Positions 7,924-21,093 of a stretch of 64,000 nucleotides of DNA are shown here, in pieces. The translations under genes were made by a program, and so were the position numbers. Location: NCBI GenBank assembly GCA_022824205.1, contig JAJEAI010000143.1, positions 1-64,000 on the forward strand, read 5' to 3'. The notes beneath the pieces were generated by a model. The model did no database searches. It had not been told where the DNA came from and saw only the letters and a program-made list of their open reading frames with translations. Every line of letters starts with the position of its first letter. The stretch's first letter is position 1. This DNA comes from Candidatus Binatia bacterium (lineage in GTDB: Bacteria > Desulfobacterota > Binatia > UBA9968 > JAJDTQ01).

Positions 7924-9408
<1,485 letters not shown>

Positions 9409-18379: not shown

Positions 18380-18593
18380 CGTCCGTCCGACTTGCCGGCA
18401 CCACATCGGTTGACCGTCGCTCCCGAAAGGACCCGGCGCATTCTCGGAAACTCTGCTGGGTCTTCCATTGGGTTGATGTCGCGGTCTTGAAGCCATTCGG
18501 GAGGTAGTGGTAAAAGGCCGGGCCAGAGCGCTGGAATCCGTGGCAGTGGGAGCGGGGCACCGTCCAGCCCGTGGTGTTTCAGAGGGGTGCAGA

Positions 18594-21086
18594 ATGGGAT
18601 CCCTACCTTTGATGCGACGCCTGTGGTTCACGTTCGGTTTTTTCGCCGCCATGACCGTCTCGACGTCCCCTCTCGTGCCGGTGTGGGCGGAAGTGCGGAA
18701 TCCGAAGGGAGTAGCGGTCATCATCGGCAACGGCGACTACGAGCACCGGGACGTGCCCGACGTGAAATATGCGCACAGGGACGCGGAGGCCTTCAAACGG
18801 TACGTGCTCGAAGTCCTCGGCTTCGATCCGAACAACGTGATCGATGTGCGGGACGCGACTCGGAGGAGGCTTTTCGACGTTCTGGGAACGCGCAGCGATC
18901 CGCGCAGCGACCTGTGGAGCTACCTGAACCCGAAGGGGGGATCGGACGTCGTGGTGTTCTATTCGGGTCACGGAGTGCCGGGCCAGAAGGACGGGCGCGG
19001 GTATCTCTTGCCGGTGGACGCGGACCCGAAGGCTGCGGAGGAGGACGGCTATCCCATCGATCTGCTTTACAGAAATCTCGGGGAATTGAAAGAGGCACGC
19101 GGCGTACAGGTGTTCCTGGAAGCATGCTTCTCAGGGGGGAGCCACGGCGGCGGGCTCGTGGGTTCGGCAAGCCCGGTGTTTGTGAAGGCAAGCCTGCCGC
19201 AGTCGAGTGGGAACAAGGTCACGTCGTTGACGGCGGCGAGCGGGGAGCAGATCGCCTCGTGGGACGAGGAGGCGAAGCACGGACTGTTCACGCGCCATCT
19301 GCTGGACGCGCTTTACGGCAAGGCCGATGCGGACCGGGACGGCAAGGTGACGGCGGTGGAGGCCAAGGAATATCTGGATCAACACATGACACGGTCGGCG
19401 CGTCGCATGCACCGGCGGGTGCAGGAGGCGAACTTGATGGGGTCCGCCGAAGTGGTGCTGGTGTCGGTAGAGAAGAACGGAAAAGATGCCCCGACCCGGC
19501 GGCCGGACCCTGGTCCTCCGCAACGGGAAGGGGACGGGACGGAGCAGGCCGTGGCTCCCTCTCCACCGGCGGGTCATGAGGCGGCCGAGGGGCCTTTGGG
19601 CCTCGATCGTTCGGAGCGTCGCCGGATTCAGAAGGCATTGGCGTCGTTGGGCTTCGACCCGGGAAAAGCGGACGGATTGTTCGGCCGGAAGACCCGGGGC
19701 GCGATCAAAAGATGGCAAACGTCGCGCGACCGGGAAGCGACGGGCCATCTGGACGCGGAGTCGGCCAAGGCGTTGTTGGCGGTGGTTGAAGAGGTGTCGA
19801 CGCCGACACGAGATGCGTCTTCCCCGAAAGACGCCGTCGACACCCTGGCGCCAGCGATCGCGGTAGCGGAACGGATCAAGGAAGCCGACGACCGAAGCCG
19901 CATATACTCATGGATCGCCGAAGTTCTGGTGAAGGCCGGCAAGTTGCGCGAGGCCGAACAGTCCTTGGTCAAAGCCTTGGAAGCGGCGGAGGCGAGCAAA
20001 GACTATGGCAGAAGCTGGGCGTTCAGTGAGTTGGCGGAGGCATGGGCGGAGGCTGCCAGGCCTGGGCTTGCCTTGCAGATCAGTGAGAGGATCGATGACG
20101 AGGAGACCCAGCAATGGACGTTGCGCGACATCGCCAAGGCACAAGCAGGAGCGGGCAAAGCGCGAGATGCCGAGAAGACGCTGCACAGGGCACTGAAGGC
20201 CGCAGAAGCTCTTGAGAACAGGCTGTACCGAGGCCGCGCATTCTACGGACTCGCCGAAATCCAGGCGGAGTTTGGCAAGCGGCGTGACGCCGAGAGAATG
20301 CTCTCCAAGGCGCTGGCAGCGGCGGAAGATATTCCTGAAGCTCTCTACCGGAGCGCGTTGTTCAGGGAGACCGCCGCGGTACAGGTGAAGTTCGGCAACT
20401 TGCGTGACGCCGCCAAGTCTCTTTCGAAAGCAGTGATCGCGGCGGAGAGAATCGAAGACACGTGCAACTTTGGCGCAACTGAGTTTGCCCGCATCGCTGT
20501 GGTGCAGTCGAAAGCCGGCAACGCCCGTAATGCCGCCAAATCATTCGCCGAGGCGCGGGCGAGAGCCAACAAATGCCAAACGGATGGCAAAGGGTCCAGT
20601 GCATTACGAGAACTGATCGAAGAACAGGCGAAGTCCGGAGGCTTTCGCCAAGCTCTGGCCACGACGGAAAAAATTGAAGACGCTTACTCCAGGTCCTTGG
20701 CACTTGCCGAAGTCGCCGCCGCGCAGGCGAAAGCCGAAAAGGGCCAAGCTGCGGCAAAGTCATTCGCCAAGGCATTGGCGGCTGCCGGCAACATACAGGA
20801 TGAGCGTTCGCGGGAGAGTGCGTTCTCCGACATCGCGTGGCGTCAAGCAGAGGCTGGAAACATCGAGGACGCCGTGTCGATCGCCCAGAGACTGGTGGAC
20901 GACTGGTACCGAGCAAGGGCACTGAACAGTATCGCCACGGCGCAGGCGAAAGCCCGCAAGTTCCGGGATGCCGTCGCTACCGCGGAGGGGATCCTGGACG
21001 ACAAGTTGTATGCCGAAGCGCTGATCGCGGTTGCAAGAGAGCAAGTCAAGCCGGTTGGCGATGCGGCGGAGAACGATCGACCGTAG
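18594..21086 (+). CDS. Secreted caspase-like (C14/orthocaspase) protein with PG-binding-like domain and helical repeats
   Basis: 830 residues. A signal peptide (about 7-32) precedes a caspase p20 domain with catalytic dyad H126 (FYSGHGVPG) and C178 (FLEACFSGG). A textbook EF-hand loop, D245-x-D-x-D-G-x-V-x-x-x-E256, lies at the end of this domain. Residues 338-397 resemble a peptidoglycan-binding domain (IQKALASLGFDPGKADGLFG, then TRGAIKRWQ). From about 410 to 820 run degenerate helical repeats of about 37-42 residues, with cores such as AAAQAKAEKG and AIAVAERI. ATG 18594 is preceded by AGAGGGG. Such orthocaspases usually cut after Arg/Lys; here envelope location and calcium control are inferred. 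Confidence 0.82.
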   Translation: MGSLPLMRRLWFTFGFFAAMTVSTSPLVPVWAEVRNPKGVAVIIGNGDYEHRDVPDVKYAHRDAEAFKRYVLEVLGFDPNNVIDVRDATRRRLFDVLGTRSDPRSDLWSYLNPKGGSDVVVFYSGHGVPGQKDGRGYLLPVDADPKAAEEDGYPIDLLYRNLGELKEARGVQVFLEACFSGGSHGGGLVGSASPVFVKASLPQSSGNKVTSLTAASGEQIASWDEEAKHGLFTRHLLDALYGKADADRDGKVTAVEAKEYLDQHMTRSARRMHRRVQEANLMGSAEVVLVSVEKNGKDAPTRRPDPGPPQREGDGTEQAVAPSPPAGHEAAEGPLGLDRSERRRIQKALASLGFDPGKADGLFGRKTRGAIKRWQTSRDREATGHLDAESAKALLAVVEEVSTPTRDASSPKDAVDTLAPAIAVAERIKEADDRSRIYSWIAEVLVKAGKLREAEQSLVKALEAAEASKDYGRSWAFSELAEAWAEAARPGLALQISERIDDEETQQWTLRDIAKAQAGAGKARDAEKTLHRALKAAEALENRLYRGRAFYGLAEIQAEFGKRRDAERMLSKALAAAEDIPEALYRSALFRETAAVQVKFGNLRDAAKSLSKAVIAAERIEDTCNFGATEFARIAVVQSKAGNARNAAKSFAEARARANKCQTDGKGSSALRELIEEQAKSGGFRQALATTEKIEDAYSRSLALAEVAAAQAKAEKGQAAAKSFAKALAAAGNIQDERSRESAFSDIAWRQAEAGNIEDAVSIAQRLVDDWYRARALNSIATAQAKARKFRDAVATAEGILDDKLYAEALIAVAREQVKPVGDAAENDRP

Positions 21087-21093
21087 CTTACGA

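Follow-up and report, generated by a model that had tools for sequence, protein, structure and literature searches.

The protein of 830 residues studied here, encoded in a window of 64,000 nucleotides (the whole stretch of DNA that was analysed), is probably, taken as a whole, a wall-associated, calcium-stabilised protease of the caspase type and, within a receptor-protease family that diversifies, a fixed member. Its features are collected in Table 1.

Table 1. Features of the gene, its product and its surroundings, in positions of the window
Feature	Position	Strand	Basis
Whole gene, 830 aa	18594..21086	+	Open reading frame, coordinates as in the preliminary description
Probable Sec signal peptide, residues 1-33	18594..18692	+	Inspection by eye and hydropathy
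Caspase-fold domain, residues 38-293 (Pfam C14 match 38-245)	18705..19472	+	PF00656 and fold match
Catalytic His codon, H126	18969..18971	+	Alignment: His in 89/89 regions (79 loci from the best 80 of 173 matches plus 10 own)
Catalytic Cys codon, C178	19125..19127	+	Alignment: Cys in 88/89 regions (79 loci from the best 80 of 173 matches plus 10 own)
EF-hand-type helix-loop-helix, residues 231-273	19284..19412	+	AlphaFold2 model
12-residue EF-hand-type loop, residues 245-256	19326..19361	+	Sequence D-A-D-R-D-G-K-V-T-A-V-E
PG_binding_1 domain, residues 339-394	19608..19775	+	PF01471, 45.8 bits (cut-off 23)
TPR-like alpha-solenoid, residues 411-818	19824..21047	+	PF13424, AlphaFold2 model, Foldseek TPR structures
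Single-gene insertion of ~2.7 kb between two convergent housekeeping genes	18386..21092	.	Flanks adjoin in G001, G002 and G003

As to the catalytic domain, the window protein belongs to Peptidase_C14 (PF00656; 47.1 bits, cut-off 21.4), and the complete His/Cys dyad claimed in the preliminary description is intact (H126/C178), so that a caspase-type cysteine protease is encoded, whose activity is predicted from sequence and model. The AlphaFold2 model (64-row alignment, mean pLDDT 86, pTM 0.57) is read here within domains and not for their relative orientation. Structural matches to its caspase fold (residues 2-263) include the MALT1 paracaspase (Z 22.7, rmsd 3.2, 216 residues), tied with Arabidopsis metacaspase 4 (Z 22.5, rmsd 3.1, 223 residues; 6w8r), a likeness in fold to the eukaryotic metacaspases. 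Against the NCBIfam family caspase_w_EACC1 (NF047832) the protein scores 67.7 bits, below the curated cut-off of 140; when the whole sequence was searched against chains of known structure, it returned PG-binding and helical-repeat chains and no caspase, and PADLOC gave a weak TPR profile alone (15.7 bits). The orthocaspase class is defined as prokaryotic and lacking the p10 domain, its other hallmarks being Arg/Lys cleavage and calcium-independent activation. A separate p10 family is absent by Pfam, and yet the model aligns with whole caspases and with MALT1 through residue 261.

A further feature of this domain is a loop of the EF-hand type. It had been placed at residues 245-256, and exactly those residues fit D-x-D-x-DG-x-V-x3-E, the EF-hand ligand pattern (positions 1, 3, 5 and 12, glycine at 6, a hydrophobic residue at 8) being satisfied by DADRDGKVTAVE. 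In the model the loop connects two long helices, the final ones of the caspase domain (mature-chain residues 199-211 and 222-241; short strand at 219-221; pLDDT of the block 91-97), and the same helix-loop-helix is seen in a second model, of the paralogue on contig C76; thus in two predicted structures the loop lies between helices and not inside one. The rows for these models were chosen by hand (64 for the first model and for the tree discussed below, 51 for the second). The loose form of the motif arises in 30 of 20,000 shuffles of the window protein and the strict form, DxDxDGx[VIL]xxxE, in 4 of 20,000, and a scan of the window's 284 stop-free frames (100 aa or longer) shows the motif nowhere else. 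A chance motif is rejected on this rarity together with the conservation of the columns. In the own genome the loop is kept in all ten copies, with D1, G6 and E12 invariant in 10/10. The wider sample comprises 89 catalytic regions: these ten and 79 loci of named genomes, taken from the best 80 of 173 confirmed matches to two catalytic peptide patterns, so that near relatives are favoured. Across this sample D1 is kept in 86/89 and E12 in 87/89, position 3 is D or N in 84/89 and position 5 in 87/89, G6 is found in 78/89, and V, I or L occupies position 8 in 88/89. By regular expression, 36 of the same 89 regions have the 12-residue loop and 41 a longer loop with an end of the same pattern; the remaining 12 fail both expressions, several of them near misses and one truncated (L111 ends before the loop). 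The expectation that the loop would be conserved in homologues is therefore borne out, and the conservation of the columns across the 89 regions makes the loop a feature of this caspase subfamily.

Whether this makes a canonical EF-hand, as had been proposed, is answered in part: the loop pattern fits, but the Pfam EF-hand family models all stay below their cut-offs (the best, EF-hand_STIM1, at 12.6 bits against 32.2), and hence we speak of an EF-hand-like loop and do not file it as a member of the family. The loop is single and unpaired. At the loop, a profile built from the ten copies matches solved structures of EF-hand proteins, at whole-sequence E values no better than 0.036. The further suggestion that the arrangement had not been described goes too far, as the loop is subfamily-wide and EF-hand motifs have been published for seven archaeal orthocaspases, with an FGE domain in eight others (PMC6426788). 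The loop considered here differs from the archaeal cases in being bacterial and near-universal in its subfamily; by the model, it lies within the caspase fold. An EF-hand motif in an orthocaspase and a fusion of a caspase with a target of a diversity-generating retroelement (DGR) are each already published (PMC6426788, PMC7517822).

It is reasonably probable that the loop binds calcium; that calcium acts as a switch of the protease is a tentative reading, to which we give somewhat less than an even chance. Most eukaryotic metacaspases are calcium-gated (PMC5756287), with calcium sites in the p20 domain and the 280-loop of p10, whereas the window protein would use an EF-hand-type helix-loop-helix. 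Orthocaspases have been proposed to be calcium-independent, with the lack of p10 as the explanation (PMC5756287), and a subfamily-wide loop of the calcium type makes that idea directly testable. A different and somewhat unlikely reading gives calcium at the loop a structural function alone, or none at all for want of binding, in an enzyme that is constitutive once folded and serves general envelope proteolysis with no link to recognition. Consistent with it are the distance in sequence between loop and dyad, the longer loop variants in 41/89 regions (79 loci from the best 80 of 173 matches plus own copies) and the published autoprocessing of a Microcystis orthocaspase in E. coli without further activation (PMC5756287), which by analogy would speak against a general need for calcium; the near-invariance of the first and last ligand positions (86 and 87 of the same 89 regions) argues the other way, and the DGR-diversified tips of the sister proteins, considered below, point to recognition for the family.

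The start of the gene is a choice, as the open frame reaches back to a GTG at 18507; we place it at the ATG at 18594, which has a GAGGGG-type stretch directly 5', and set the mature end near residue 32/33. Judged by eye and by hydropathy, a hydrophobic stretch precedes the mature start in all nine own-genome N-termini compared, that of the window protein being the weakest (mean hydropathy of the h-region 1.42, versus 2.01-3.11 in the sisters); export is considered likely. The PG-binding-like segment seen at first proves to be a PG_binding_1 domain above cut-off, by which the protein may bind the wall. The long array of helical repeats noted along with it is confirmed as an alpha-solenoid, with TPR_12 (PF13424) at 33.4 bits (cut-off 30.1) and some 20 paired helices, two per ~40 residues, in the AlphaFold2 model. 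Among 21 relatives hand-picked from the 79 loci (for FGE-like C-termini, with L055 and L056 included), Pfam recognises C14 in 21/21, FGE in 19/21 and PG_binding_1 in 12/21, along with bacterial SH3 (3), PEGA (3) and ankyrin repeats (2). The recurrence of PG-binding, SH3 and PEGA domains in the family, as well as the hydrophobic stretch in all nine N-termini, makes it quite improbable that these proteins are cytoplasmic, acting as intracellular conflict effectors like the DGR-linked caspase-like and CHAT proteins of multicellular bacteria, even though most cyanobacterial DGR variable proteins are predicted to be cytosolic (PMC7517822), as are several of the targets described in PMC10907252. Among clusters of cellular DGR targets, the majority have a signal peptide or a transmembrane segment according to PMC8144416 ("caspase" does not occur in the main text of that paper).

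The window protein is one of a family. The own genome has 13 C14 matches, among them nine close paralogues of the window gene (54-81% identity in the catalytic region), eight on contig C65 and one on C76. Seven of the nine carry a C-terminal FGE/C-type-lectin domain. In one of these seven (C65, 5565-8159) a single in-frame TAG separates the caspase from the FGE domain, and the FGE end still fits the DGR template pattern, with 15 of 18 mismatches at adenines. Another copy (C65:12299) stops after the PG-binding domain, a third (C65, 11251-12036) is broken, with the catalytic Cys changed to Gly and stops downstream, and C65:31712 is an FGE domain without a caspase. In other genomes of the genus the flanks of the C65 array lie, by subtraction, 954 (G002), 1,037 (G005), 1,050 (G006), 1,076 (G003), 1,883 (G001) and 4,273 bp (G004) apart, versus ~34.6 kb here, and the array is thus an island of ~33.5 kb. 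The family as a general property of the genus is rejected, as one of eight same-genus genomes has a match (69 residues, 38%); of the relatives searched, 8/57 match, at best 33%. The window gene lies apart from the island, alone in its ~2.7-kb insertion, which is missing from three congeners (G001, G002, G003). The flanking genes, read from their translations, we take to be an FAD-type reductase and a 6-phosphogluconolactonase. The plasmid search gave distant caspases alone (31 records, best 39%), the viral-contig search two distant loci (39-40%), and phage reverse transcriptases (RTs) do not exceed 38% identity to the C76 RT among the ten listed of 154 matches, so that a close home on mobile elements was not found. 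Rfam gave no matches in the window, and a scan of it for promoters and terminators nothing useful. Further genes of the C65 island encode an FGE-only protein, a SIMPL-domain protein, an AAA-ATPase-like/PD-(D/E)XK fragment and a protein that weakly matches SLT transglycosylase; apart from this fragment, no NTPase partner was found among the nine island proteins scanned.

A further possibility is that C65 and C76 are mis-binned and foreign to the organism of the window, which would make the DGR link an artefact. The estimated contamination of the MAG is 4.9%, and C76, at 5.6 kb, has no recognised housekeeping gene. However, same-genus genomes contain the flanking sequences from either side of the C65 island, with their order preserved and 79-94% identity in the main pieces, the flanks of the window gene match the same genomes, the template on C76 accounts for four variable regions on C65, the catalytic domain of the window protein is 81% identical to that of a C65 copy, and the GC contents (65.9, 66.6 and 65.6%) agree. 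Mis-binning of C65 is already largely refuted, and the explanation as a whole is scarcely credible.

The probable source of the diversity in the FGE tips lies on C76. After an FGE-bearing caspase gene come an Avd gene (NF033474, 98.2 bits against a cut-off of 80) and an RT gene (PF00078 above cut-off; phrog_1423, 357.7 bits), the end of whose frame is overlapped by a template with adenine at 32 of its 119 nt. Mismatches fall at template adenines in 14 of 15 cases in the C76 variable region and in 16/19, 13/18, 15/17 and 15/18 in four C65 genes (hypergeometric p 1.0e-8 to 1.5e-5 over the five), whereas just upstream of the variable region the same four genes, compared with C76, have 2/14, 6/28, 6/30 and 9/37, and the bias is absent. 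All 12 template codons starting with AA vary among the five variable regions. RT, Avd, template and adenine-specific changes being all present, C76 and its targets constitute a DGR system. The bias is weaker in C65:24141 (19/45), C65:31712 (22/42) and L053 (19/37, three-block alignment); C65:13647 was left out of the scoring. Related variable regions share their variable codons, so we count template pairs within one genome alone and discount adenine excess between genomes. The pairing of caspase and DGR is repeated in two other genomes: G060 has one caspase target adjoining the template (19/20) and another at a remote site (12/13), the template of G064 is matched by a caspase encoded on a different contig (18/19), and the two RTs are 71-73% identical to that of C76. 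Twelve genomes with family loci were searched for the RT; five have some match, two of them strong (G060 and G064), and seven have none, incomplete MAGs possibly concealing more. In the model of the C76 target the FGE domain, which has low confidence (under 50) at 582-593 and 665-673, is similar in structure to PvdO (Z 29.1) and to Treponema denticola variable protein 1 (2y3c; Z 23.6, rmsd 2.8, 223 residues). Unlike both of these, the window protein has no FGE/CLec tip, and as a DGR target it is rejected: the FGE domain is absent by Pfam, contig C8 has no FGE match, and the C76 variable region finds no match inside the window gene.

Instead, sequence comparison presents the window protein as a fixed offshoot of the family, with a helical-repeat module in place of the diversifiable tip. 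In a tree of 64 catalytic domains, for which the alignment was remade and whose bootstrap values have not settled, it falls in a clade of six rows with five FGE-bearing proteins (support 96/84), the nearest row being the FGE-bearing template match C65:8021 at a weak fork (89/49). At the DNA level the gene resembles the own copies through its catalytic and PG-binding parts, and the similarity ends before the repeats. A tail of repeats 32% identical to that of the window protein is found in L055, from an Immundisolibacterales MAG, which falls in a separate, mostly FGE-bearing clade (100/99). The simplest account of this tree is two exchanges between variable tip and repeat module, which suggests how a diversifying system spins off fixed members. 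The kinship of the caspases and the swap of the tip are put forward with high confidence. That the gene is instead decaying or functionless, its lectin tip simply lost, is very improbable: it does stand alone in its insertion, and of the paralogues one is broken (Cys to Gly, stops) and another split by an in-frame stop, but its 830 codons are open, neither dyad nor loop is damaged, and the tail, which recurs in L055, is predicted with good confidence as a solenoid. The dyad, loop, PG-binding domain and helical array of the preliminary description have all been found; it missed the island, the FGE domain of the sisters, the DGR and the single-gene insertion, for which evidence from outside the window was needed.

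The fixed-offshoot reading allows a mechanism to be proposed. The protein would be made in the low-calcium cytoplasm, exported and held at the wall by its PG-binding domain, and calcium bound outside would fix the helix pair, so that the protease might fold or fire only outside the cytoplasm. In the sisters, the variable tip would capture a ligand and thereby set off the cleavage of surface proteins or direct it to a target, and the solenoid of the window protein may bind an invariant partner, possibly one of these sisters. A receptor-protease role of this kind is conceivable, though we would not call it probable. Bolder, and distinctly unlikely in its entirety, is the notion of an outward-facing array resembling adaptive immunity, in which wall-bound caspases have lectin tips rewritten by one retroelement (five of them template-matched) and are armed after export by calcium at the EF-hand, with the solenoid of the window protein as common partner or scaffold. 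Such an array, if real, would contradict the view of prokaryotic orthocaspases as calcium-independent; it would also account for the caspase-FGE fusions, a long-standing puzzle.

Elements of this architecture have been encountered before. One example comes from cyanobacteria, whose DGR variable proteins can begin with an orthocaspase-like part and end in a CLec domain (PMC7517822); with these the present family shares a caspase-type domain joined to a DGR-rewritten C-type-lectin tip, remote targets and caspase paralogues; it differs in being probably exported, in the EF-hand-type loop (the main text of that paper makes no mention of EF-hand), in an often present PG-binding domain, in its occurrence in Proteobacteria and, for the window member, in the exchange of the tip for a solenoid. 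Another example is the fusions of metacaspases or orthocaspases with FGE-sulfatase domains, found in 33 of 671 sequences, with a PG-binding domain in 11 of 671 (PMC3501461; calcium and EF-hand are not mentioned in its main text). C14 and FGE are joined there as they are here; the FGE part was weighed as a possible modifying enzyme, whereas several FGE parts of the present family are DGR targets. The DGR-rewritten FGE tips thus offer a reading of such fusions, for which no purpose had been settled on in 2012 (PMC3501461). A third example is the DGR-linked conflict systems of multicellular bacteria (PMC10907252, PMC7159879), where retroelement-rewritten CLec/FGE domains are likewise tied to caspase-like peptidases; their sensors are STAND or MoxR NTPases with separate effectors, whereas here protease and variable tip form one polypeptide. 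A protease with a retroelement-rewritten lectin tip in a single, probably exported chain would be a compact candidate for a diversifying receptor-protease. No literature joining a diversity-generating retroelement with EF-hand or peptidase C14 was found, which is weak evidence, most subscription journals lying outside the search.

Some further observations concern the retroelements and repeats of these genomes. In L064, a Pseudomonadales MAG chromosome (OY282519.1), an Avd homologue (8191-8463; 67% identity) directly follows an FGE-bearing caspase gene; an RT match was not found at this locus, which is possibly a decayed DGR. Two more RTs above the Pfam cut-off are encoded in the own genome, on C195 and C174 (L035, L036), and are 27-28% identical to the DGR RT. 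Finally, the interspersed repeat at C65:113-380 occurs dozens of times in the own genome and in the genus, and its translated frame resembles, by eye, a palindromic repeat near 22.9-23.1 kb of the window.
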